Assembly: GCA_016946835.1 (NCBI GenBank)
Contig: JACVTC010000094.1
Coordinates: 232,001-296,000 of the forward strand
DNA: 64,000 nt
Origin: Neocallimastix lanati (nom. inval.)
Lineage: Eukaryota; Neocallimastigomycota; Neocallimastigomycetes; Neocallimastigales; Neocallimastigaceae
Reading direction: 5' to 3'
Below are positions 5,212-45,984 of this stretch, piece by piece (positions within the stretch are counted from its first letter, which is position 1; the number at the start of each line of letters is the position of its first letter). Under the pieces are notes generated by a model. That model did no database searches. It was not told the DNA's origin and worked only from the letters and a program-made list of their open reading frames with translations. The position numbers and the translations under genes are program-made.

Positions 5212-6609
5212 ATGGACGATAAATTAGAAATAAGTGAAACTAATAAAGAAAAAAACCAAATCATTGTAAACAGAAAATATAAATTTAATTTATGGTATAT
5301 AACGAATAATACAAAAGTATTCAAATGTACTGAATATAAAACAGTTAAAATATGTAAATCTTACATTATTCTAAATGATAATAATAAAGTAATAAAATAT
5401 GAAAACAAACATACTCATCCAGGAAAATAATATGATGCATCTGTATCAATAGTAAAACATAAAATGAAAAATGAAATTAGAAAAACCTCAATCCCATTTG
5501 ATATAAATTCAAAACATATATATAATGAAATATCTGAAGAAATTGGATTGATATGCCCTGAATATAGTTCAATTAAATCCCAAATATCAAGATATATAAA
5601 AAAACAACTACCTCCTGATATATCAAAATTTAATGAAATTCCAGATGAATCTGATTATTACATAAACGAAAGAGATGAAAATTTTATGATATTCAAAAAT
5701 TCTAATATTATAATTTTTCAATCACCATTCCAAACAGAATTGTTCATTAAATACAACGAAAATATGTTTGCTGATGGTACATTTTATATTGCACCAATAT
5801 TTGGTTATCAAGTGTTTATAATAAGAGTATATGCTCCAGAAATAAATAGTTTTTACACTACATCATTATCTATATTAAATAATAAAGAACAAGCAACCTA
5901 TGACTTGTTATTTGAAGAATTAAAAAAGAATGCAAGCAAATATAATAATAATATTATAGTTATACCAAAAATTTTGCATTGTGATTTTGAAAAAGGTATA
6001 TCCAATGCTGCCATTAAAATATTTTCTAATATTACTATTAAATATTGTGTATGGCATTATAAAAGATCGTTAGAAGTTATGTTATAATGAAGTTGAAAAT
6101 AATAATAAAATTTATTTGTTTTATAATGCTATTACAAATTTTCCTTTTATAAATCCTGAATATATATTTGATTTTTATAAATATAATAAAATTATATGTC
6201 AAATATATAATTATTTCAATTTTTTAAATTTTTTGGAATATTTTAATAAGACTTATTTATATAAATATGATATTCAATATTGGAATTATTATAACGATAT
6301 AAACCACATAACAAATAATGCTTCAGAATCTTTTAACAATTACTTAAAAAATTTGTTTTGCAAAAAACCTTCTTTCTATGAATTGATTAATCATTTAAAA
6401 AGAAAAGAAACTTTATCTTACAATAATTACAAAAGGAAATTTGAAGGGTTTGGAAAAAAAAAAGAAGAATAGTAACAAAAACTGATGAAATCAATGATTT
6501 AATTAAAAAATACAAAAAAAAGGAATTCGAATTGATTGATAAAAAATGTAATAAAAATGATATCATTGATTTATGGTATAAATGTTTATTAGAATTAAAC
6601 ACTCTCTAA
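5212..6609 (+). pseudogene. MULE1 transposase (FLYWCH zinc finger plus MULE DDE domain)
   Basis: The N-terminal 5212-5430 is a FLYWCH zinc finger (NRKYKFNLW, FKCTEYKTVKICKS, HTH...), probably binding the terminal repeats. After one in-frame TAA at 5428-5430 the same frame continues at 5464-6087 with the MULE catalytic core: FADGTFYIAP (first Asp), LHCDFEKGISNA (second Asp) and CVWHYKRSLE. A frameshift near 6070 leads to 6116-6472, with NNASESFNNYLKN, the presumed third acidic residue. A second shift in the A-run near 6455-6464 leads to a Lys-rich tail ending at about 6609. Family membership is firm, and the gene is inactive as read. Confidence 0.85.
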
Positions 6610-28400: not shown

Positions 28401-28801
28401 TAATATATAACATAAATTTAATTTATTAAAATTTATATACATATAAATTTATTCTAACATATGATCTAAAACAAATATGTTTAGTAACATATTTGTATAT
28501 TTAATAATAATTATTAAATATTAAATTTATATCTTTTGATAATAATTTTTATAATATATTATAAATTATTCATTATTATATTATAATTACTATTATAATA
28601 TATATTAAATTACATATTATTTTATAATATATTAAATTATATATTTATTTTATAATTATATATTATTATATTAAAATATAATAATATTCTTATATTTAAC
28701 TTTAATAGGATTTTTATTATATTATATAATATATTATTATGTATTATTTTATATTTATTTTATATTTTACATATAATATACATTTATTATTTAAATATAG
28801 A

Positions 28802-29029
28802 TGTTAACTTACGTGAATTATTAGTTATATATATTTATATTATGTGTCATGTTACACTAATGTGTCATGTGGTCTAAGCCACATTTATATGTCTATAAAT
28901 GTGGTGTAAAGAGATTTTATTGTACATCAGTTCTTTAAAGCACTTTGTGCCTTAAGTGCTCACTATCTATCTAAATATAATAAATAAAAGTTGATATAAA
29001 AACTAAATCCAAAATAACCAAAGTTATCA
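28802..29029 (+). repeat. 5' LTR of the non-autonomous element
   Basis: TGTTAACTTACG...AAGTTATCA. It contains a hairpin CATGTGG/CCACAT and a TATA-like TATAAAT at 28894-28900, a reasonable promoter position, with the presumed transcript start downstream. Confidence 0.9.
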
Positions 29030-29043
29030 GATTAAGAGTCTCA
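29030..29043 (+). promoter_or_regulatory. Primer-binding site, half tRNA-Lys(CUU) type
   Basis: GATTAAGAGTCTCA abuts the 5' LTR and matches the complement of the tRNA-Lys(CUU) anticodon arm over all 14 bases. This is the perfect version of the four sites in this window. Confidence 0.75.
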
Positions 29044-29555
29044 ATGACTCTAAACAAGAAAACAAAATAATGTTTTTATTATTTTGTTAACTACCGAATT
29101 ACGCTACTCAGCCGGACACGATACAACGTCTTTCTATCAGCCAGATATAAACAATGTCAAGAAAATTTTTTTTAAGATCTCGAAATTCAAAATTTTGAAA
29201 TTTGAGAAGTATGAGCTATCTCCATTAAAGAAGAAAAATAATGCTATTTCGAACTAAGATATAATTAATTTTAAACTTTAATAAGCAGTTTAAATATATA
29301 ATTTCAAAGTATGAATTTAAAATTTAAAATTTAAGATTTTAAAATTTTAAATGTAAACAAACAAATAATTTAAATTTAAAATTTATTTAATAAAATTTGA
29401 ATTTTATTATTCAAAATAAATAAATAACTTAAATTTAAATAATAATTTAAAAGGAATTTTAAATTAAAATAAGAAATTGTAATATTCATTCTATTTAAGG
29501 AAATAAATAAAATACATAGTCTTTGAAATAAACACAGTTAAAATTTTGGATTCAC
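29044..29555 (+). other. Leader of the non-autonomous element
   Basis: A/T-rich apart from 29095-29160, which is more balanced (ACGCTACTCAGCCGGACACG). No frame. It may hold packaging signals, but nothing shows this directly. Confidence 0.4.
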
Positions 29556-30725
29556 TTGAAAATATGGATTATGAAGAAAGTCTATATAGATATAATGGTC
29601 AACGCGAAAGGTTTTCTAAAACTATCCTTAAATCATCTCAATAGAAGAGAAGACACATATTATAGAGATTATTTTTTACACTTTATTACGGTGATCGTAT
29701 TGAAAAATGTATACTATATATTGGCACTGAAAACACAATTATAGACCATACACACAATACAGGATAAAATTTTATGAATACGCTAAGGCAAACATTGGAA
29801 GCTTTGCCTGGAACAAATCTGGTGAGAGACAAGCATATAGAAATCAAAATGTAAAATTTACCTATTATGAATACAAATGTAATCTTTTTGTATATGAAAT
29901 GATTCCAAACGTTGGTTATGATATAGGTACTCCTTGTAATTCGGGAAGAAGAGATGAACTTCTCAATCCAAATAAACCCAACAGACCACCAACCGCTTTT
30001 ATGTGGTATAACAATAAAGATACTCATAGTATTCCTGGATTTAAATTTATCGGTCAAGGTGATGAAGGTAAATCAGAATGTATACCAGGTGATATTATTA
30101 CTGATAGTAAACATATGGGTATTGTTGCTGAAGAAAAAACATCAATTAGTGCTAGTTCTGGAGTTTGGGATCTTCTTAAAGTTGTTCATAATAATTGGGG
30201 TTTTAGAGGCAATGAAAAAAAAAAAAAACCCATTAGAATTTATAGATTTGATCCTAACTATCTTGAAGCTGTCAGTATTTCTAACGATATAACTGCGGAA
30301 TACAACGAAATTAATTATTGTAACTCTTGCTTATGCTACTATGATGACACATACACAGATATTGAATATCTTGACTATCCTACAGATTACTTAGACGATG
30401 ATTATTTTAATTACGATGAAACCACAGAATATTTATGGGATGATGAACCTAATCAAGAACAAACAACTACAACTAAAATATCCTCAACTGCAAAAAATAC
30501 TTCAACTACCACTATAAAAATTACTACTACTATATTCTTATGAAACTGATACTGATGACCCCTCAGATACAAAATTTAATGATGATCAACATTATAATTA
30601 CGATGAAGAAAATGATGATGAGGAACAAAATAACAATAAAAAAATTTTTGGTTATTAGTTGGTTTAGGCGCCATATGGTGCGCAATTACTTATATATTTT
30701 GTTGCCACTGTTGTCATTAACAACA
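29556..30725 (+). pseudogene. Captured papain-fold cysteine hydrolase-like gene (NlpC/P60 or CHAP type)
   Basis: The longest frame is 29899-30543, and coding-like sequence continues on both sides. Just upstream and in frame, KCNLFVYEM gives a likely catalytic Cys (codon 29878-29880). GDIITDSKHMGIV gives the His (30112-30114), and VHNNWGFRG a possible third polar residue near 30190. A Cys segment, a Gly-Asp turn and then HxGIV is the NlpC/P60 and CHAP pattern. Enzymes of these families cleave peptide or amide bonds, often in bacterial cell walls. After the domain come Asp/Tyr-rich and Thr-rich stretches, and a short hydrophobic Cys-rich end is readable near 30660-30720, suggesting a membrane-anchored or secreted protein. 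The frame changes a few times (breaks or unseen introns), so it is probably non-functional here. The family assignment is by motif only. Confidence 0.55.
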
Positions 30726-31400
30726 ATTATCAATCATCAACACTTAATTTTTAACAATACTTATAGTCAATCATCAACAATTTACAATACTTTAATCATT
30801 CAATTCAATCAACAAACATTATATTACAATAGCAAGAATTTATTAATCAATTAACTTGTACATATATATATTCAGTAAAATATATCAACTTATGAAAAAT
30901 AAGCATTAAATACTTAATATATGAGAAAAACATTTATTTAGATAGAAAATTATTCACTATATCAACTATTTACATTCAAACATTTTATAAGAAATTATTT
31001 ATATTTAAAATAAACATAATTTAAATCTAAACAATTATGAGATTTACAATTATTTAAAGATTTAAATAAAAGATTAATTCTACACATTAACTTTTATTCG
31101 TGGCGTAAAACTTTATAATAATCTTATATTTTCACAATTCATAGAAATAAATAAATGTTTATCAACAATATAAATGAGAAGAAAAGAGAAAATTTATTAT
31201 TTTAGATGCTCTGAACATTCAACATTCATTATATAATTTTAAATTAACTTAAATCACATATGAAAAAATATAAAACCCTCTAATTACAACAATTTACTCA
31301 ATAAATAATTCAATCAATTATTTTCAATTATCCTACCCCTTACTTATTACTTCATAATTAATTTTTTCACACATATACATATATTCAAAACATTCCTGAA
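30726..31400 (+). other. Non-coding A+T-rich part of the non-autonomous element
   Basis: No frame. It includes the 8-mer GTGGCGTA at 31100-31107 and otherwise has no clear structure. Confidence 0.5.
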
Positions 31401-31410
31401 TAATGGTTGT

Positions 31411-31543
31411 TGCTCAACCACAAAGCATCTACATGAAGTATACAATTTAAACGCATATTTTTAACTCAAAAGCGTATTTATACATATTACTATTTATTCG
31501 AATATATTTAATATTAGTTACTGCTAACTCCAAAGCTGATATT
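31411..31543 (+). repeat. Short hairpins with Ala-rich 'AACYMCAA'-type loops, first cluster
   Basis: TGCT-CAACCACAA-AGCA at 31411-31427 and GCT-AACTCCAA-AGC at 31523-31536 are shown directly. A related ACGC...GCGT structure lies at about 31451-31475. An outer stem CGAATAT/ATATTCG encloses the 31523 hairpin. The loops resemble each other and the cluster at 32521-32641, while the stems differ. Confidence 0.6.
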
Positions 31544-31568
31544 CGAAAGAGGAAGTCATAATTATGAT

Positions 31569-31701
31569 AGAAATGCTTAGCGTGAAATGAGCATATTCTA
31601 CAATATTATTTTAATAATTGAATACCTAGCGTGAAATGGGTATATTCAATAATATTTATATCATGGTATAACTTAGCGTGAAATGAGTTTTTACCATAGA
31701 T
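31569..31701 (+). repeat. Three hairpins with an identical 12-nt loop TAGCGTGAAATG
   Basis: The loop TAGCGTGAAATG occurs at 31578-31589, 31627-31638 and 31674-31685. Each copy is enclosed by a different self-complementary stem: AGAAATGCT/AGCATATTCT, ATTGAATACC/GGTATATTCAAT and ATGGTA...ACT/AGT...TACCAT. The first two have a small bulge on the 3' side. Constant loop with compensating stems is the signature of a selected or duplicated RNA (or single-stranded DNA) structure. Confidence 0.8.
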
Positions 31702-31756
31702 ACTACTGATTTAAGAGATGGCGTAATACCTTTATATACTTGTAAGGATTCCATCC

Positions 31757-31817
31757 ACAATGGTATAACACTTTCATAGAAAAGGTTCCATTGTTATAAT
31801 GATGACATTGATTCATC
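31757..31817 (+). repeat. Hairpin pair module, copy 1
   Basis: ACAATGG/CCATTGT encloses a 24-nt loop (31764-31787). It is followed by GATGA-CATTGAT-TCATC at 31801-31817. The same two-hairpin module recurs at 32994-33095 with other stem bases. Confidence 0.7.
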
Positions 31818-32520
31818 CTTTATATATTTTACTCAACATTCTATTACGAAATGTTATAACTCCGACTTATACAAGCGGATGATAGACTCCTCATATTAAT
31901 TTACTTATATTATTAATGTATATTAGCCGATCTATTGGTATGATATCCAAATTAACATAGATCTAAGATTATAATACATTTAATCATAACAATACTTCAA
32001 TTTATCACTCAAATAGTTTTGAATATTCACAAATTACATTATGTTTAAACGCTACTTTCAAATCCAAATATTAAATTCTTTAAACATTTAGATTTGAGGG
32101 GGGAATTGGATAATAATATTGGATAATTATACAATAGTATTGTAATAGAACATAGGTTTAGAACAGGAATCATTAATACCTATTGGAAAGAAAATCCAAA
32201 TATTGAAATATTTTATAACAATTGGATTTTAGGGGGGACATAGTATAAAGATAGGAAAACAAATGTTAATTTAAAATTGAAATTTAACTAAATTAATTAC
32301 TTTGAAAATTAATTAACTTGAAATGAAAGAAAATCTAGTAAAAACAAAATAGTAAAAATGAAATTTAGAAATTACTTAATGAAATATAAAATATAAAATA
32401 ATTTAATAATTCAATATTATGATTTTAAATGTAAAATAACATAATTAAATATTAAATTAATTTAATTTTAATACCCCAAACAAAATTTACTTAAAACACC
32501 TAATTTACATAATAGTTAAG

Positions 32521-32641
32521 GTTTATCTACAAAACGAAGATATTTTAATAGTTAATGCTAATCTATAAAGCAATATTTAATAGTTATCGCTAAAACTACA
32601 AAGCGAAATATATATAAAAGTTAGCGCTAATCTACAAAGCG
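32521..32641 (+). repeat. Short hairpins with AATCTACAA-type loops, second cluster
   Basis: Four hairpins follow each other: GTTT-ATCTACA-AAAC (32521-32535), TGCT-AATCTATAA-AGCA (32556-32572), CGCT-AAAACTACAA-AGCG (32588-32605) and CGCT-AATCTACAA-AGCG (32625-32641). The loop sequence is held while the 4-bp stem changes on both sides. Confidence 0.7.
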
Positions 32642-32974
32642 GATTATAATTAATAGTGATGTAAAACCCAATATAACAGATTATAATTAATAGTGATGTA
32701 AAACCCAATATAACAGATTATAATTAATAGTGATGTAAAACCCAATATAACAGATTATAATTAATAGTGATGTAAAACCCAATATAACAGATTATAATTA
32801 ATAGTGATGTAAAACCCAATATAACAGATTATAATTAATAGTGATGTAAAACCCAATATAACAGATTATAATTAATAGTGATGTAAAACCCAATATAACA
32901 GATTATAATTAATAGTGATGTAAAACCCAATATAACAGATTATAATTAATAGTGATGTAAAACCCAATATAACA
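32642..32974 (+). repeat. 37-bp minisatellite, nine near-identical copies
   Basis: The unit starts GATTATAATTAATAGTGATG and continues with TAAAACCCAATATAACA. Unit starts are 32642, 32679, 32716 and so on to 32938. The copies appear identical by eye, so the array expanded recently. Confidence 0.95.
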
Positions 32975-32993
32975 GAGGTATTCACATATTTTA

Positions 32994-33095
32994 GATGGTA
33001 TAATATCACCCTTCAAGAGAAAGGTTTCCATCATATATAAATGGTAAATTTAAACCATATAATTATTTTATATTAAAGATGACATAGATTCATCT
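32994..33095 (+). repeat. Hairpin pair module, copy 2
   Basis: GATGG/CCATC encloses a 29-nt loop (32999-33027) related to that of copy 1. It is followed by AGATGA-CATAGAT-TCATCT at 33077-33095. A diverged third copy lies at 23800-23900. Confidence 0.7.
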
Positions 33096-33476
33096 AATAA
33101 TTATTAAAGGTGTAATAACACTAAATACTTAGTTTAGGGGGAAATCATTAAATTAAATTATATTTAAGAAAATTATTTTAACTACTAGATAATTAATATT
33201 ACATTAGAAAATTATTTTAATTATATAAAAAAATTGTAAAATTACTATAGTTCATGTAAAATTAAAAGATAATTTTATTTCATGTAAAATTGAGAAAATA
33301 TTTTAAATTCATGTAAAACATGTAAAACTAAGAATTAATTTAGAACAGTTAAAATTTATAGTTTATAGATATTAGGAAAAACATTAGAAAAATTTAATAT
33401 TAGAAAATTAACATAATTCACACGTACTCTTGCAAACCAAATTATATTCTTTGAAATAATTAGGTTTGAGGGGGAA

Positions 33477-33704
33477 TGTTAACTTACGTGAATTATTAGT
33501 TATATATATTTATATTATGTGTCATGTTACACTAATGTGTCATGTGGTCTAAGCCACATTTATATGTCTATAAATATGGTGTAAAGAAATTTTATTGTAC
33601 ATCAGTTCTTTAAAGCACTTTGTGCCTTAAGTGCTCACTATCTATCTAAATATAATAAATAAAAGTTGATATAAAAACTAAATCCAAAATAACCAAAGTT
33701 ATCA
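33477..33704 (+). repeat. 3' LTR of the non-autonomous element
   Basis: 228 bp, two differences from the 5' LTR by eye. The TATA-like element is at 33569-33575. Confidence 0.9.
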
Positions 33705-33960
33705 ATAGATATTGTATTCTTATATATATATAATTTATATTATATGTTTAAAATATATTTCATATTATTAAATTTTATAATTTTAAAATGTAATTTCTTA
33801 ATAATAACCAATTTCTAATAAAATTAATTTAGAAAGGGGGTTTTTAGTTTTTAGGAAAAGTAATAATAAATTAAATAAAGATATAACTATATTATTATAA
33901 TTAAAATATAGCACAAAAAAGTCCCGTATATCACATATGACGTCACATGTATTTATTCAT

Positions 33961-37852: not shown

Positions 37853-38505
37853 TGATATAAAACAAATATGTGTAGTAACATATTTGTATATTTAATAATA
37901 ATTATTAAATATTAAATTTATATCTTTTCTTAATAATAATTTTTATAATATATTATTAATTATTTATTTTTATATTATAATTACTATTATAATATATATT
38001 AAATTATATATTATTATATAATATGTTGAATTATTTATTTATTTTATAATATATTAAATTATATATTTATTTCATATTTATATATTTTATATTAGAATAT
38101 AATAATATCCTTATATTTAACTTTAATAGAACTTAAATAATCTTATTTTATATTATATTACATAATATATTATTATATATATTATTTTATATTTATTTTA
38201 TATTACACATTATTTTATTTTATATTATTATATTATATATTATATTTCAATATATAGTATACATTTATTTTTAAATATTTATATTATATTCTTATATATG
38301 TAATTTCATATTATATATTTAAATGTATTTTATATTATTTAATTTAATAATTTTAAAATGTAATTTCCTAATAATAATTAATTTCTAAGATGATAATTTT
38401 TAGAAGGGGTTTTTTTTTAATTATTTTAGGAATAAGTAATAATAAAATCAATAAAATATAACTATACTACTAAAAATTAATAGCACATAAAAGTCCCGTA
38501 TATCA
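37853..38505 (+). repeat. 5' LTR of Gypsy-1
   Basis: TGATATAAAACAAATATG...AAGTCCCGTATATCA. The tips form the 6-bp inverted pair TGATAT/ATATCA. Confidence 0.95.
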
Positions 38506-38510
38506 AAAAT

Positions 38511-38525
38511 TGGTGGAGATATCGG
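38511..38525 (+). promoter_or_regulatory. Gypsy-1 primer-binding site
   Basis: TGGTGGAGATATCGG lies five bases after the LTR. The TGG start fits pairing with a tRNA 3' CCA end. The same 15 bases occur at the Gypsy-B primer sites (47422-47436 complement, and 57672). I could not name the tRNA. Confidence 0.75.
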
Positions 38526-38876
38526 GGATGTGCAGTAATATAGTTGTATTATTTTTATAAGTGTTTTATTAAGAGATATATTTTTATTATAATTATTTTC
38601 GTGTGTTAATTAAGTTTAAATAAAATATTAGTTGAAAATTAATAATTACGCGTCAAAAAAAAAAAAAATTATATATATAATAATAATAAATAATAATTAT
38701 AATAATATTAATATTGATAATAATACTTAGTAACAAAAATAAATAGTAAAAATTTTAATAGTGATAAAATATATACTTAATTTTTATAAATTATTGAACG
38801 CGTTTTATTAGTTAATAGGACTATATATTATTGTATTTATATATATATACTACTCATTATTTGGAATTTTCTTAAA

Positions 38877-39227
38877 ATGTCCAGTTCACCTACTACTTCG
38901 ACAACTCTAGTGGATAACGATGATGTCGATACTAGAACTCTACCAAGGATTGGAGGTGTTCATAAAGATGCAGAAATTTGGAAGTTTCGTATTACTGACT
39001 GGTTTAGAAGGGAACGTATTGTAACGGATGCAGGAAAATTCAGTTATACCATTGCATCCTGTGAGGATGATATAGTTCGTGTACTTCATACGGAACAAGT
39101 CAAGTTGAATCGGATTCTAACACTAGACGAATGTGTATACCTAATTAAAAAGAAATATTGGAGAGAAAATCTGAAAGAAGACAAATTAAGACAAATTAAG
39201 AAAATTATGATCAATCCAAATGAAAGT
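38877..39227 (+). pseudogene. Gypsy-1 gag, N-terminal part
   Basis: Starts MSSSPTTSTTLVDNDD and continues with WKFRITDWFRRERIV and LDECVYLIKKKYW, helical gag-like sequence. It runs up to the inserted solo LTR. Gag forms the particle shell. The codons are less A/T-biased than the surroundings, consistent with young coding sequence. Confidence 0.8.
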
Positions 39228-39935
39228 TGTAAAGATGTGATTATCCCAATCACATTTTAAATTAAAAATTTTTCTTGTGTAATTCAAAAATGTAAATTAT
39301 TCTTTGATTTATAAAATAATAAGCAAAGTAAATAAATCATATGAACTAAATTTTTGAATTATATTCTTTAAGCCACAAGATAAATCTTTAATGTAATAAT
39401 TTTTATAAAATTTAATTCTGAGAAAATTATTGTTGTAAAATAATTTAAATAAATTAATTAAAGTTTAAAACAAAATAAATTAATAATTTATTTTGTGAAA
39501 ATTAAGTTTCAAAATTAAATCATGACTCCTTTAACATTGTTTTTAAATCGAAAATAAATAAAGACTTTACTTATAATATTAAAATAATAAATAGATAATA
39601 AATGTACTTAATTTTAATTATTTAGTATTTAGTTTAATTAATAATTATATTTTTCTAAATTTAGCTATAGTTTATAAACTTATTATTTAATAAAATTCAT
39701 TAGGATAGTTTTATATTAAAATATATGTAATTTAAATAAAATAATATATTATCAATGTATTTAGGAAAAGTATAAATAGAAGATACTTTTCACATTTTTT
39801 CTCGATGTAATTGTTATTTTTAACAAACAACTATTAAATATTAATTAAATATATTTTTAATAAAAATATTTTTTTTAAAATAAAATTTTATTATATTCCT
39901 TTGTTATTGTAATCTATTTTAGTATTTTCTTTACA
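39228..39935 (+). repeat. Solo LTR (LTR-C family) inside Gypsy-1 gag
   Basis: 708 bp, starting TGTAAAG and ending CTTTACA (7-bp inverted tips), flanked by the exact 5-bp repeat AAAGT (39223-39227 and 39936-39940). A TATA box TATAAATAG at 39771 fits an LTR promoter. Its tip matches the fragment at 3709-3790. It shows that Gypsy-1 itself served as a target after it had inserted. Confidence 0.9.
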
Positions 39936-39940
39936 AAAGT

Positions 39941-40900
39941 ATTTACGACTTTAATACTAGATTCTTAGAGTTATATGATCAATTAGATTCCGCAGACCAA
40001 TCTTCCTTCTCAGTGATCGACTATGAAAATGCCTTGAGACCTCGTAGTAGAATTTATGAAAGAATCGCTATGGCTGAAGCTCCTGACCTTGAAACTGCCT
40101 GTAACTTAGCTGAGAAATATGAAAATATATTAAATCAATCTCAAGGAAACCAAGAAATGTGGGGTCCTTATGGTAATATCAATAATTATAATAGAAGAAA
40201 TAATTTTTCCAAATCTGGTAGATCAAATCTTAATAATGTTTTCATTGATTAATATAATAATAATTCAAATTTCACTCCATTTAATAATAATTTTAATACA
40301 TTTAACAATTCAGGAAATTTTAATAGAATGAAGATTTAATAATGTATCATTAAATTCATCATCTAGAATGAATTCTAGCGGTTTGAGAAATTTTAGAAAC
40401 CAAAATTCTAATAGTTTTAATAATAACAATAATCTTGGTAACAATAATTTTAATAATAATTATAACAATGGTAATAATTATAATAGTAATAACAATAATC
40501 GTAATATAAATCACAATACAAATAATTATAATAATAATTCTGATGTTATAGACGATTTAACTAATCAAATGAGAAATTTAAAAATTAAAACCTGTTATTT
40601 CTGTCATCAACCGGATCATGTTTTAAAAATTGCGTTGCTTTTGCTAGATTCCAAAATGATCCAAATTATGAAAATTATATTAATTCCTTATATTCTCAAA
40701 AAAACTAGATAATGGAAGAAGGCTAACTTCCTTTAATCAAAATGCCAACCCTAGTATAATTGCAGCTACCTCATGGAATGATAATTACAAAAATATTATT
40801 GCTGCTGCAAAACGTAGTAGAGATGAAAAATATTCATCCTTACTACCAAAAACAAAAAGAAAAATTAATAATGAAAAATTAAGCGAAAATGATTATACTA
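39941..40900 (+). pseudogene. Gypsy-1 gag, C-terminal part with Asn-rich tail and zinc knuckle
   Basis: Begins in gag sequence (RFLELYDQLDSADQSSFSVIDYENALRPR), then KYENILNQSQGNQE, then a long Asn-rich tract with repeated NNNFNNN units. A CCHC-type start CYFCHQPDH lies near 40590, normally the RNA-binding zinc knuckle. Then a Lys/Arg-rich stretch leads to pol. Fossil with a few breaks. Confidence 0.8.
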
Positions 40901-40905
40901 ATAAA

Positions 40906-43900
40906 ATGTATTATAATACAATAAATAATTCACCTAAAATAAAATATAATTTAAGAAATAGAAATATTGTAGAGTTACCCTTTAAGAATAAACCAAAAAT
41001 TAATTACATTATTAATAATACTAAAAATTTTAATCATGATATAACTAATAAACATGACAACGAAAATGTGGATAATAATACATTGGAAAGTATTAATGAT
41101 GGAAATTTAGATAAACTAAATATTAACAAAACGAATGTATTGAACAATAATGATTTTGAAAGTATAGGTAAGAAAATAAGGAATAATAGTTTGGATATTG
41201 TGGATAAAGCAGATTTGGATATTATGGATAAAGTTGACTTGGATGTAGAGAACAATAATAAAAATAATAAAATGGATAACTTGAACACTCAAAATGAAGA
41301 AATTGGTAAAAGTAGTAAAGTTAACAATCTAAATAAAATTGGAATTGGAAATAGAATGAACCCTACCAATGATAAAGAAAGAGATAAAACGAAGGACAAA
41401 GCTACCAGAGTTGGTCAAATAATTCAATTGTTAGAGGGTGTTGAACCATACGATATTGTGGAAGAATTGAGAAATACCCCAGCTAATATTAATTTGGCTC
41501 AGTTATTAGGAATTAGTAGTGCCTTGCGTGCCGATGTTAACAGAAGTTTCAAAAAATTGAAAACAGAAGAGGAAACAATCATAGGCTATGTGGAATGTTA
41601 CGATGACATCGAAAATTTTGAGATTGTCAACAATCCGACACATTGCTACTGTACCAGGGAAGTCCAGGAACACGATATTGCTGTGGTCAGTGGTTCCGTT
41701 GATGGTTATCCTGCCGCTATTTTAATTGATGGTGGTAGTAACGAGAATTTAGTAACTAGGAAATTCCTCACAAAATTCATCAAAAATTATACTGTTGTAA
41801 GAACTACCTCTGGCAGAGTACATCAAGCTTTATCTGATGTTGAAGAAAAGGTTTATGAAATAGTTCAACTTGAAGTACAAATTGGAACATTAAAAATTAA
41901 TACTGAATTTAGAGTCGTGGATAACGGTGATCCTATTTTTGATATAATTATTAATTTAAAAACACAAGCGGATTATAAGTTGCTAGTAGATGCTAATAGT
42001 AAATATTTATATGTGAGAAATAAAATTAATAATATCAATGTTATTTTCAGTTTTAACGTTGTACCCTTAGTACCATTAGAGGACGTTCAAATTTTTCAAT
42101 CTCAAGCTATGTTTTGTTATATAATAGAAAATCCACCTTCTACAATAATTAATAATATTAATAGTATTAATGAGAAAGTTGATAAAAATAAAATTCTTGA
42201 AGTATTAATTGATAATATGGATATCAAAGATTTGGATTTTAAGGTAGAATTCAAAAAAATATTAAATTCTTATACAGATGTTATAGCCGTTTCCAGTGAT
42301 GATTTGGAACTTTCAGAATTACTACCTTACCATATTGAACTAATTGCAGGTAGTAAACCTACTAAACGAAAAGCTTACAGAATTTCTCAAATTCAATTAG
42401 AAGCTTTAAAAATAGAATTAAAGAAATTAATAGATAAAGGACTCATTGTACCATCTCATTCACCATGGTCGTCACCTATTGTATTAGTACCTAAGAAAAA
42501 TGGTCGTTGGAGATTATGTATAGATTATAGATTATTAAATAATATCACTAAAAAGGATGCCTATGCAATTCCGATAATACAAGAAATTTTTGATGCTCTA
42601 AAAGATGCTTATATTTTTTCAACTTTGGATCTGTTTAGTGGGTATCACCAGATACCTATGTTTAAGGATGATCAAGAACTTACTTCATTTACTACTAAGT
42701 TTGGAAATTATTACTTTAAGGTAATGCCTTTTGGTTTGACCAACGCTCCTGCTACCTTCCAGAGAGAAATGAATCGTATATTCTTTGACTTAATAAATAA
42801 ATGTGTTCAAATATATTTGGATGATATTATTGTATATTCGCCATCCATTGAACAACATCTAATAGATTTAACAAATGTTTTTGAAATTCTCAGAAATAAT
42901 AAATTAAAAATGAATATTGAAAAGTGTCATTTCTGTGTTTACGAAGTTGAAGCGTTGGGACACAAGATTTCAAATAAGGGGTTATTACCCATAGAAAGAA
43001 AAGTAGATGCAATCAAGAATTTAGATATTCCTACCAATATTTCTGAATTACGTTCTTTTCTTGGAATGGTTGGATATTATAGAAATTTTATTGAAAACTA
43101 TGCTTCTATTTCTGAACCTCTACGTAAACTTTTAAGGAAAAACTCACCTTTTATTTGGACTAAAGAACAAACTATTAGTTTTGATAATATGAAGAATTCT
43201 CTTTGTAACGCACCTATCTTATGTTATCCACGTTTTGATAAACCCTTTATTATTCGTACAGATGCTAGCTATCTAGGGATAGGTGGAGTATTATTACAAC
43301 TATATGAAGATAAAATAGAATACCCAGTATTTTATATTAGTCGTTCTTTAAGTAAATCTGAACATAATTACCCTATTACTGAATTGGAAGGAACTGCAGC
43401 TTACTACTGCATTAATAAGTTTAAACCCTATATTCTTGGAAACCCTTTTCGGACTATTCTTTATACAGATCATCAACCTTTAGTTTCTATAATTAAAAAC
43501 AATGAACCAAATACAAGTAAACATGCTCGTTGGTGTCTTTTATTTAGTCAGTTACAAGTTGACGTTGTTTATCAACCCGGGAGAGCAAATATATTAGCTG
43601 ATGCACTTTCTCGTATAAAAAGGAAAGATATTATTACTACTAATGCTTTGGTAAACGATAATAATAGTAATACTGAAGGTAACGTAAAAGAAAACAATGA
43701 AAATAATATTGATGATGAAGGTAATAGAAGAGAAAATGGTGGAAATGGTATAGTTGATATTAATAATATAATAATTAATAATAATAACGAAGAGGATACT
43801 CCCAGAGAATTTATTGATGAAATTGAAAATGAAAAATATATTTCAGAATTTATGAAAAAGTTTTTGACAGAGAGGATTATCACTATTAATGATAAAACAT

Positions 43901-44340
43901 ATATTAAAGATAGAGGTAAACTTAGACTAGTAATAGATGATTATTTGGAAAAAATAAAAATTATCGGAATGGCCCATAGGATCGGCCATGAAGGCCTACA
44001 AAAGACATATGATAGAATAAAACAAAATTTTTATTGGAAAAATATGATTTTGGATATAAAGAAGTATATTTCAATTTGTAAAATATGCCAATTAAACAGA
44101 TCGGAACCTTCTCCCAATTTAGTTGAACAATTTAGAACTCCTGTAGAGGCTCCTTTTGTCAGATTAGGATTGGTTATTATTGGACCTTTAAAAACTACAT
44201 CCAAAGGTAATAAGTATATTCTAGTTTGTGTAGATTATTTTACTTTATGGGTTGAAGCTGAAGCCTCTAAAACAATTACTTCTCAAGATGTTACCACCTT
44301 TTTAATTAATGTTTTTAGTAGACATGGTTACCACAAATAA
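40906..44340 (+). CDS. Gypsy-1 pol: protease, reverse transcriptase, RNase H, integrase N-part
   Basis: A 1144-residue frame. Residues 1-170 are an Asn/Asp/Lys-rich spacer. PYDIVEELRNTPANINLAQLLGIS (about 186-210) is a segment also present at the window end (63790-63880). Aspartic protease has ILIDGGSNENLV near 274. RT has SPIVLVPKKNGRWRLCIDYR (about 523-543), TLDLFSGYHQIPM, PFGLTNAPATFQ and catalytic YLDDIIVYS (about 636). RNase H has IIRTDASYLGIGGVLLQ (about 782), a TDHQPL segment and LADALSRIKRKD (about 894). The integrase zinc-binding HRIGHEG...CKICQLNRSEPS lies at about 1023-1068, followed by the start of the core (KYILVCVDYFTLWVEAE). The order is typical Ty3/Gypsy. Confidence 0.95.
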   Translation: MYYNTINNSPKIKYNLRNRNIVELPFKNKPKINYIINNTKNFNHDITNKHDNENVDNNTLESINDGNLDKLNINKTNVLNNNDFESIGKKIRNNSLDIVDKADLDIMDKVDLDVENNNKNNKMDNLNTQNEEIGKSSKVNNLNKIGIGNRMNPTNDKERDKTKDKATRVGQIIQLLEGVEPYDIVEELRNTPANINLAQLLGISSALRADVNRSFKKLKTEEETIIGYVECYDDIENFEIVNNPTHCYCTREVQEHDIAVVSGSVDGYPAAILIDGGSNENLVTRKFLTKFIKNYTVVRTTSGRVHQALSDVEEKVYEIVQLEVQIGTLKINTEFRVVDNGDPIFDIIINLKTQADYKLLVDANSKYLYVRNKINNINVIFSFNVVPLVPLEDVQIFQSQAMFCYIIENPPSTIINNINSINEKVDKNKILEVLIDNMDIKDLDFKVEFKKILNSYTDVIAVSSDDLELSELLPYHIELIAGSKPTKRKAYRISQIQLEALKIELKKLIDKGLIVPSHSPWSSPIVLVPKKNGRWRLCIDYRLLNNITKKDAYAIPIIQEIFDALKDAYIFSTLDLFSGYHQIPMFKDDQELTSFTTKFGNYYFKVMPFGLTNAPATFQREMNRIFFDLINKCVQIYLDDIIVYSPSIEQHLIDLTNVFEILRNNKLKMNIEKCHFCVYEVEALGHKISNKGLLPIERKVDAIKNLDIPTNISELRSFLGMVGYYRNFIENYASISEPLRKLLRKNSPFIWTKEQTISFDNMKNSLCNAPILCYPRFDKPFIIRTDASYLGIGGVLLQLYEDKIEYPVFYISRSLSKSEHNYPITELEGTAAYYCINKFKPYILGNPFRTILYTDHQPLVSIIKNNEPNTSKHARWCLLFSQLQVDVVYQPGRANILADALSRIKRKDIITTNALVNDNNSNTEGNVKENNENNIDDEGNRRENGGNGIVDINNIIINNNNEEDTPREFIDEIENEKYISEFMKKFLTERIITINDKTYIKDRGKLRLVIDDYLEKIKIIGMAHRIGHEGLQKTYDRIKQNFYWKNMILDIKKYISICKICQLNRSEPSPNLVEQFRTPVEAPFVRLGLVIIGPLKTTSKGNKYILVCVDYFTLWVEAEASKTITSQDVTTFLINVFSRHGYHK

Positions 44341-44345
44341 TTAAT

Positions 44346-44990
44346 ATGGATAATGGAACCCAGTTGAATAGTGATTTCACCAAAATATTCTTAGATCTTT
44401 ATGGTGTATATATTCATTTTGTTGTTCGTTACCATCCTGCTTCTAATGGCTTGGTCGAAAATAGAAATAGAGAGATTGGAAAACAACTTAGGAATTTTGC
44501 TGGTAAAAATAATGATTGGGATACCTTACTACCTTTAGCTTTATGGGCTATCAGGACTTCAAAATCTTCTGTTAGTGGATATTCAAGTTTTGAATTATTA
44601 TATGGACGTGAAAATATACTCCCAAATGAAATCAATATACTTTGTTCATTAGGAGAATCCATCGAGCAACCAATTGAAGAATTATTATTAGAAAGATTAA
44701 TAGAACATACAAAATGGATTATGTACGCAGCCAATAAAAAGTTTGGGACAATTAACTATTGGAAGACAAGAAGAGAAGAAAAGAAAAGTATGGAAAAGAT
44801 TCATGAATACAAAATCGGTGATAAAGTAAAAATAAGAATGTTTCAAAGACATAAATTGGACCCTTATTATATTGGACCCTATACAACCAAAGAAATCACT
44901 TGGAATACTGTTAAATTACAAGAAGATAAAACTGGAATTATATTAAAGAGGAATGTACACATCAAAAATATTCTACCTTATAGAGAATAA
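44346..44990 (+). CDS. Gypsy-1 integrase, core end and C-terminal domain
   Basis: A 214-residue frame with MDNGTQLNSDFTKIFLDLYGVYIHF (second Asp region) and YHPASNGLVENRNREIGKQLRNF (Glu region). Then WAIRTSKSSVSGYSSFELLYGRENILP and a small basic C-terminal domain (YKIGDKVKIRMFQRHKLDPYYIGPYTTKEI...RNVHIKNILPY). It is part of the same integrase region as the preceding frame. A 3' untranslated stretch (44991-45329) leads to the 3' LTR. Confidence 0.9.
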   Translation: MDNGTQLNSDFTKIFLDLYGVYIHFVVRYHPASNGLVENRNREIGKQLRNFAGKNNDWDTLLPLALWAIRTSKSSVSGYSSFELLYGRENILPNEINILCSLGESIEQPIEELLLERLIEHTKWIMYAANKKFGTINYWKTRREEKKSMEKIHEYKIGDKVKIRMFQRHKLDPYYIGPYTTKEITWNTVKLQEDKTGIILKRNVHIKNILPYRE

Positions 44991-45329
44991 TAATAATATT
45001 AAAAAAAAAAAAAAATTATTAACAAAAATTTAATAACAAATTTTTTTTTTTTTTTTCAAAAATTGAATCAAAATTTAAATTATAAATTTATCATAATTTT
45101 TATAAATTTTGTATTTGAGATATTCAAATTATATTAATGAATATTTTAATAACTAACATAGTAAATATAAAATTTTCTTTAAAAATGAAATAATATTCTA
45201 CAATATAATTATCTTATAAAAATTATTATTTTGTTAATAGTCAATTTTATCTTCAATTAAGAATTCTTCTTGTATAGAAAAAAAATACTTAATCTCATAT
45301 ATAAATTGCTATCTTAGCGAGGGCAATTT

Positions 45330-45984
45330 TGATATAAAACAAATATGTGTAGTAACATATTTGTATATTTAATAATAATTATTAAATATTAAATTTATAT
45401 CTTTTCTTAATAATAATTTTTATAATATATTATTAATTATTTATTTTTATATTATAATTACTATTATAATATATATTAAATTATATATTATTATATAATA
45501 TATTGAATTATTTATTTATTTTATAATATATTAAATTATATATTTATTTCATATTTATATATTATTATATTAGAATATAATAATATCCTTATATTTAACT
45601 CTTTAATAGAACTTAAATAATCTTATTTTATATTATATTACATAATATATTATTATATATATTATTTTATATTTATTTTATATTACACATTATTTTATTT
45701 TATATTATTATATAATATATTATATTTCAATATATAGTATACATTTATTTTTAAATATTTATATTATATTCTTATATATGTAATTTCATATTATATATTT
45801 AAATGTATTTTATATTATTTAATTTAATAATTTTAAAATGTAATTTCCTAATAATAACCAATTTCTAAGATGATAATGTTTAGAAGGGGTTTTTTTTAAT
45901 TATTTTAGGAATAAGTAATAATAAAATCAATAAAATATAACTATACTACTAAAAATTAATAGCACATAAAAGTCCCGTATATCA
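45330..45984 (+). repeat. 3' LTR of Gypsy-1
   Basis: Pairs with 37853-38505, with about ten small differences by eye. It is preceded by the purine-rich GCGAGGGCAATTT. Confidence 0.95.

Follow-up and report, generated by a model that had tools for sequence, protein, structure and literature searches.

Structured cis-acting elements of LTR retrotransposons are already known, and the array described here differs from them in the loop, in the array form and in being shared among families. Hairpins in which a constant loop is carried by interchangeable stems, with a bulge on a fixed side, bear the usual signature of structures read by a protein. Iron-responsive elements in the 3'UTR of the transferrin receptor are tandem hairpins in which a constant loop, CAGUGN, tops variable stems, and a bulge is found at a fixed distance on the 5' side. 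Among retroelements, CTE and RTE are located near the 3' LTR, which they precede as the array does, and non-autonomous LTR elements include classes called TRIM, LARD and TR-GAG. According to the available text of PMC1363727, CTE and RTE act in posttranscriptional transport by way of conserved export machinery, and RTE resides in mouse IAP. According to the available text of PMC5454406, structured cis-acting RNA is required when mini-Ty1 RNA is mobilised by a helper, its activity is regained completely (S1) or in part (S2) upon compensatory changes, and the packaging region of Ty1 is placed close to the 5' end rather than in the 3' noncoding part.

The sequence analysed, hereafter the window, is a stretch of 64,000 nucleotides from the anaerobic gut fungus Neocallimastix lanati. 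It hosts, at positions 31566-31701, three consecutive hairpins with the same loop, which resemble the TIPIRT of mini-Ty1 in being plausibly structured RNA of a copia-type element; TIPIRT lets RNAs lacking pol serve in trans. TIPIRT lies on the 5' side and comprises a pseudoknot and kissing loops (available text of PMC5454406), whereas the array lies on the 3' side, and the longest self-complementary stretch within its loop, in which kissing loops were looked for, is 2 nt. CTE and RTE, found in type D retroviruses and in mouse IAP, are structured posttranscriptional elements of retroelements, as the array may be. Compared to iron-responsive elements, the array has the loop GCGUGAAA and a bulge on the 3' side. 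TRIM, LARD and TR-GAG elements share with the hairpin-bearing elements LTRs, PBS and PPT, the absence of a detectable pol and, in some cases, host-like genes; what sets the hairpin-bearing elements apart is the array of structured hairpins that their 3' modules share. The earlier note knew of no family with this loop. Rfam gave no match to the window at the gathering threshold, and none to the element at E values of up to 5; an IRE-like, CTE-like or other Rfam RNA was discarded on this basis. The literature covered, in which subscription papers and preprints are represented to a limited extent, yielded no account of hairpins of this kind or of gut-fungal LTR elements with a comparable module.

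The hairpin array and the element hosting it

The array sits inside an LTR retrotransposon extending from 28802 to 33704, the + strand being the sense strand, and comparison with ten neighbourhoods similarly placed it within a repeat bearing direct terminal repeats. The 228-bp LTRs (TGTTAACTTACG...AAAGTTATCA; 28802-29029 and 33477-33704) are direct, begin with TG and end with CA (TGTTA...ATCA), and the element is flanked on both sides by the 5-bp target-site duplication ATAGA (28797-28801 and 33705-33709). The primer-binding site (PBS) GATTAAGAGTC, which presumably reads as the complement of the anticodon arm of tRNA-Lys(CUU), lies directly 3' of the 5' LTR (29030-29040), and the polypurine tract (PPT) GGGGGAA (GAGGGGGAA) just 5' of the 3' LTR (33470-33476), both on the + strand. 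The insertion appears to be young, since the LTRs are identical at 226 of 228 positions. Both this retrotransposon context and a second structured motif adjoining the array go beyond the earlier note.

In the 3' noncoding module a 37-bp unit occurs in nine perfect copies (32642-32976, + strand). Degenerate 36-bp units (32510-32640) adjoin them, and resemble a block located 5' of the hairpins (31516). The 3' module also hosts four PPT-like runs of G5-6 (at 32098, 32232, 33137 and 33470), and multiple purine tracts are likewise present at loci L001, L002, L015 and L017. The GC content of the window is 19.5%, and no tRNAs were found within it; a GC content of 18.2% is given for Neocallimastix californiae in the available text of PMC11003543. 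The fungal dockerin CBM_10, arrays of which mark the phylum of anaerobic gut fungi, has 1440 first-look candidates in the genome, and all 150 that were scored exceed the cut-off, against 0 of 14 control genomes. Additional mobile DNA resides in the window, including an LTR element (37853-45984) with ~655 bp repeats (98.6%) and a 1144-aa RT/RNase H/integrase-zinc frame, more copia pieces at 13.9-19.0 kb and 59.4-63.3 kb, and a MULE transposase fragment (5464-6087).

Hairpins 1, 2 and 3 span positions 31566-31605, 31615-31654 and 31662-31701, and score 56.0, 57.9 and 50.5 bits, respectively. As claimed earlier, they carry an identical sequence at the tip, the exact 12-mer TAGCGTGAAATG (31578-31589, 31627-31638 and 31674-31685), always on the + strand, and each of them folds. 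Predicted energies of the sense RNA are -11.3, -9.9 and -13.4 kcal/mol (z = -3.5, -2.4 and -4.1), and 1, 4 and 0 shuffles, each out of 200, fold as well. What had been described as a 12-nt loop is in part stem, as the 12-mer is organised as UA-GCGUGAAA-U(G/A). Its two outermost bases at either end are paired with each other, as U-G or U-A and as A-U, and the unpaired loop proper is restricted to eight bases. Arms had been estimated at 9-14 nt; with the two inner pairs counted, the stems measure 14, 12 and 16 bp. They are interrupted by a 1-2 nt bulge on the 3' side, which had been noticed in two of the hairpins, or, in the case of hairpin 3, by a bulge of 1 nt together with a 1x2 internal loop. 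The flanks, thought to be entirely different and yet self-complementary, do pair, but include two nearly constant bases. In the 56 distinct 54-nt hairpins extracted from the loci fetched, the second base 5' of the 12-mer is a pyrimidine (C or T) in 55 copies, and the second base 3' of it is G in 51.

RNA is favoured over single-stranded DNA, because it is the sense RNA that has the loop-closing U-G or U-A pair and that is predicted to be more stable, with weaker energies predicted both for the antisense RNA and for DNA. The hairpins could alternatively work as single-stranded DNA or cDNA, for example as a pause or a strand-transfer point in reverse transcription, and DNA hairpins are predicted to form on both strands too. 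Yet, predicted folds are about twice as stable in the sense RNA, which is also the only molecule in which the closing U-G pair exists, and a DNA structure is accordingly given very little credit. In the common variant TAGCGTGAAATA the closing pair shifts from U-G to U-A. Wobble in the outer stem (14 G-U and 13 A-C cells over the four pairs adjoining the 12-mer) does not separate the strands.

Hairpins of a second type are found immediately downstream (31717-31755 and 31759-31792), and once more at 32994-33032, all on the + strand. The first copy is organised as GATGG, internal loop, CCTT...AAGG and CCATC; the second reads AATGG...CCATT, and its outer pair covaries. The consensus is (G/A)ATGG, an internal loop with U(G/A)UAA, CCUU...AAGG and CCAU(C/T). 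In a set of 23 rows, chosen by hand among 44 regex matches (ten of the others are hairpin 3 or chance, 11 are near-duplicates), 87.8% of the cells are paired, against 82.6 +/- 1.1 in shuffles. Covariation is 0.225 versus 0.136 +/- 0.017 in shuffles, with a register slid by +3 (9 pairs) reaching 0.236, and four of the six outer pairs never vary. We take the 3' noncoding part of the element as one structured RNA module.

Stem covariation and loop copies in the genome

The loop is far more abundant in the genome than expected by chance. Exact TAGCGTGAAATG has 150 copies in 199 Mb (762 contigs), and the variant TAGCGTGAAATA, ending in A, has 123, against one copy for either reversed pattern. Directly 3' of the loop, 73 of the 150 copies have G and 76 have A. 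Of the 123 places of the variant 100 are listed, and its counts on contigs after C654 are to be read as at least the values given. On contigs C1-C643 the listed loops form 138 arrays, of which 97 consist of a single loop and 41 of several. When all listed places are considered, loops are most often spaced by 45-50 or 53-54 nt, and in no case do neighbouring loops lie on opposite strands within 300 nt. Locus L021 (C60), the stem score of which is 0, was taken as a chance match to the loop. Viral contigs were similarly rejected as carriers: two 16-mers gave 0 and 5 matches, and the latter, which score on the inner 16-18 bases only, at 56-61% GC, were taken as chance. Loci were fetched by the exact loop, and loop identity within them is partly by construction; searches keyed on LTRs and on flanks are free of this selection.

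According to the earlier note, pairing would be coincidental if the stems changed without compensation in other copies. Over all 43 distinct 40-mers, copies with broken stems included, 77.7% of the cells are paired, against 65.6 +/- 1.4 in column-preserving shuffles and 33-45% in slid controls, and the covariation score is 0.396 versus 0.206 +/- 0.018 (0 of 500 shuffles), the shuffles ignoring the relatedness of the copies. The 26 rows selected for the alignment and for model R1, from which 17 near-duplicate, chimeric or poorly paired 40-mers were left out, reach 79.5% and 0.458. In neither set do the measures based on counting variable pairs, or types of pair, rise above the shuffles, and the evidence for covariation is therefore provided by matched cells and score. 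Exchanging the 3' arms provides additional information. For the three hairpins of the window the true assignment is the best of six (55 versus 40 at most). For eight classes, hand-picked with one representative each, 3 of 40,320 permutations, including the true one, reach the observed total, and for six classes 1 of 720, which is the true assignment itself. Support is weaker with 12 automatic clusters that include chimeras, as 272 of 20,000 permutations reach the observed total.

Arrays expand. Seven loops are found on C66 (L033/L034) and eight at C747:549516-549859. On C66 the unit, 47 bp long, extends from one loop to the next, producing chimeric stems, which suggests recombination or template switching at the loop. 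Many hairpin copies are decayed; stems are broken both in some of these and in recombinants in which the junction is the loop itself, and arrays recombine loop to loop, with stems broken, without evident loss of the element. The expansions, the chimeras and the decayed copies fit the notion that the hairpins have no present function, and that an old structured repeat hitchhikes in a 3' module descended from a single ancestral element, the identity of its loops being explained by gene conversion and loop-to-loop recombination. The short stretches that LTR families share, which make common descent likely, point in the same direction. Conversion, however, would spread stems together with loops, while stems differ and covary, and the loop has been kept although LTRs have diverged to short matching stretches. 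We regard the absence of function as improbable.

LTR families, cargo genes and polymerases

Hairpins recur in three LTR families. Each of three LTR queries was scored on its 40 best matches, out of 61, 369 and 866 first-look candidates, and yielded 11, 13 and 6 pairs of LTRs lying on the same strand, 1-8 kb apart. In this sample of 30 pairs, 24 host loops (8 of 11, 11 of 13 and 5 of 6), all in the sense of the LTRs and none in antisense. Hairpins are 0.9-2.2 kb away from the 3' end of the element, and 0.7-5 kb from the start of the 5' LTR. Among unpaired LTRs, 3 of 18, 3 of 15 and 8 of 28 have a loop within 3.5 kb. A query keyed on the right flank of the array gave 27 rows, two of which are one place on C755, and 18 of them have a listed loop within 250 nt. 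Listed loops are missing from the other nine, as from six of the 30 LTR pairs.

Similarity among the query LTRs is limited to short stretches (42 nt between F1 and F2, 22-nt ends between F2 and F3), and global scores are slightly above those of 100 shuffles for both these comparisons, but not for F1 and F3. The three families were at one time considered unrelated, a view abandoned upon direct comparison, which revealed the short common stretches. These, along with the similar 3' modules, suggest a distant common descent, and the module may come from one ancestor. Elements of the third family, in which five of six pairs have loops, are ~2.0 kb long and keep one hairpin. Stem covariation, recurrence across diverged LTR families and strict sense orientation support the view that the array is a conserved structure under selection. 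Of the claim that it is a selected RNA or single-stranded DNA structure, selection thus stands, and RNA is preferred. We estimate at about 80% the probability that the array is a selected cis-acting RNA module.

Cargos vary. The window element carries a decayed gene (29731-30854, + strand), which comprises the ORFs 29899-30543 and 30540-30854 and has a relative on C752, in a hairpin element with an ORF of 644 aa. This 644-aa ORF matches the contig of the window at C757:262268-262717 and 262527-262658, corresponding to window positions 30268-30717 and 30527-30658. Neither the longer ORF of the window element nor the 644-aa ORF, which ends in a hydrophobic, TM-like C-terminus (by eye), has a Pfam match. 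At L071 (C752:71600-73900), a frame 5' of the 644-aa ORF, again lacking a Pfam match, includes DTHGS and ASC motifs, which we take to recall a caspase-like peptidase. Relatives carry an LRR ORF on C66 (LRR_8, E 9.6e-10; C87 is similar) and a 101-aa ORF on C390, and in the hairpin element of C446 no frame reaches 90 aa. A short, secreted-looking ORF (by eye) lies near the hairpin at L009, where a PPT and an LTR-like start are found 1.4 kb downstream. A GH25 ORF (E 8.5e-23) lies near the hairpin at L012, and is a candidate cargo only, the locus being known from hairpin and ORF. Of the 29 matches to the 644-aa protein, 21 are followed by a loop at a distance of less than 4 kb, and the gene thus looks like a resident of the element family, not a new capture. 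Recent capture from a host gene found no support; the eight matches with no listed loop are 33-67% identical.

The hairpins might have been a regulatory element in the 3'UTR of a family of host genes for surface proteins, and have come along when such a gene was captured. Acidic stalks and TM-like C-termini, noticed by eye in ORFs of some elements, and the GH25 ORF at a hairpin locus would be in line with such an origin, but hairpins stay while cargos differ, and the 644-aa gene looks resident in the element. Moreover, the ~2.0-kb elements leave little room for a gene and retain the hairpin, as would not be expected if it simply belonged to the 3'UTR of a single captured gene. An origin from a host 3'UTR is very unlikely.

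Among the ORFs searched in hairpin elements (the window, C490, C115, C66, C390 and part of C752), neither a reverse transcriptase nor the gag-pol with integrase, RT and RNase H of an autonomous Ty1/copia element was found. An apparently intact copia (L033:681-6845, on C66), with one 1760-aa gag-pol frame and end repeats 99.7% identical, has the same PBS as the hairpin elements and no hairpins. Of 150 polymerase matches, the scored part of 1504 candidates, three are followed by a listed loop at up to 8 kb (chance alone would give 0.75), one being the place of the query itself, and no autonomous hairpin-bearing element was found among them. On C56, copia RNase-H remains lie ~0.9 kb upstream of a hairpin, but an LTR end and a PBS between pol and hairpin suggest a neighbouring element, and C56 was rejected as autonomous carrier. 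No second C56 place was found among the best 40 of 866 candidates for the C56 LTR.

Possible roles of the module

A function needed by the RNA of the element is suggested by the sense orientation and 3' anchoring of the hairpins, which occur regardless of cargo and survive in ~2-kb elements. Our preferred reading, tentative and held at slightly less than even odds, is that the array is a protein-binding RNA module which may allow transcripts lacking pol to be handled, and probably packaged, by copia machinery. Each unit of the sense transcript would fold, and any compatible stem would present the eight-base loop and the 3'-side bulge. A trans-acting protein would read loop and bulge, repeated units raising avidity, and the array would mark the transcript for a copia-type helper, ensuring packaging into particles and reverse transcription from the shared PBS. 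That the module serves specifically packaging or selection by a helper is somewhat more doubtful. Recognition by a copia helper is favoured because the PBS of the hairpin elements is that of the intact copia neighbour on C66, and helper-mobilised mini-Ty1 offers a precedent. It is weakened because this neighbour lacks hairpins and few polymerase matches lie near a loop, and also because the packaging region of Ty1, in the text available, is 5', while the array is 3'. The LTR pairs and flank rows that have no listed loop, and the broken stems in elements that show no evident loss, speak against the preferred reading too.

Nuclear export is the main rival to helper packaging. A host RNA-binding protein could read the hairpins as an export, stability or translation element, in a CTE/RTE-like manner, and long AU-rich unspliced RNA would consequently exit the nucleus or persist. 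Repeated structural units lie 3' of the coding part and ahead of the 3' LTR, as this reading would have it, and occur with different cargos; CTE and RTE, posttranscriptional transport elements in the available text of PMC1363727, provide a precedent. The intact copia of the same genome, in turn, manages without hairpins, and we consider a role in export unlikely, though less so than the absence of any function.

How LTR elements lacking a polymerase are recognised by helpers is poorly known. Under the preferred reading of a module handled by copia machinery, an RNA signal with a fixed loop, repeated across diverged LTRs and cargos, would make helper recognition directly testable, and an RNA-protein handle would result for a fungal phylum with few genetic tools. 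The array may even belong to a gene-shuttling system of anaerobic gut fungi, in which several LTR families share an RNA address made of both hairpin types, a dedicated protein reads it, and borrowed machinery moves any transcript so marked. This is a long shot, but, if true, genes for surface or secreted proteins lying 5' of the 3' module would be moved too.
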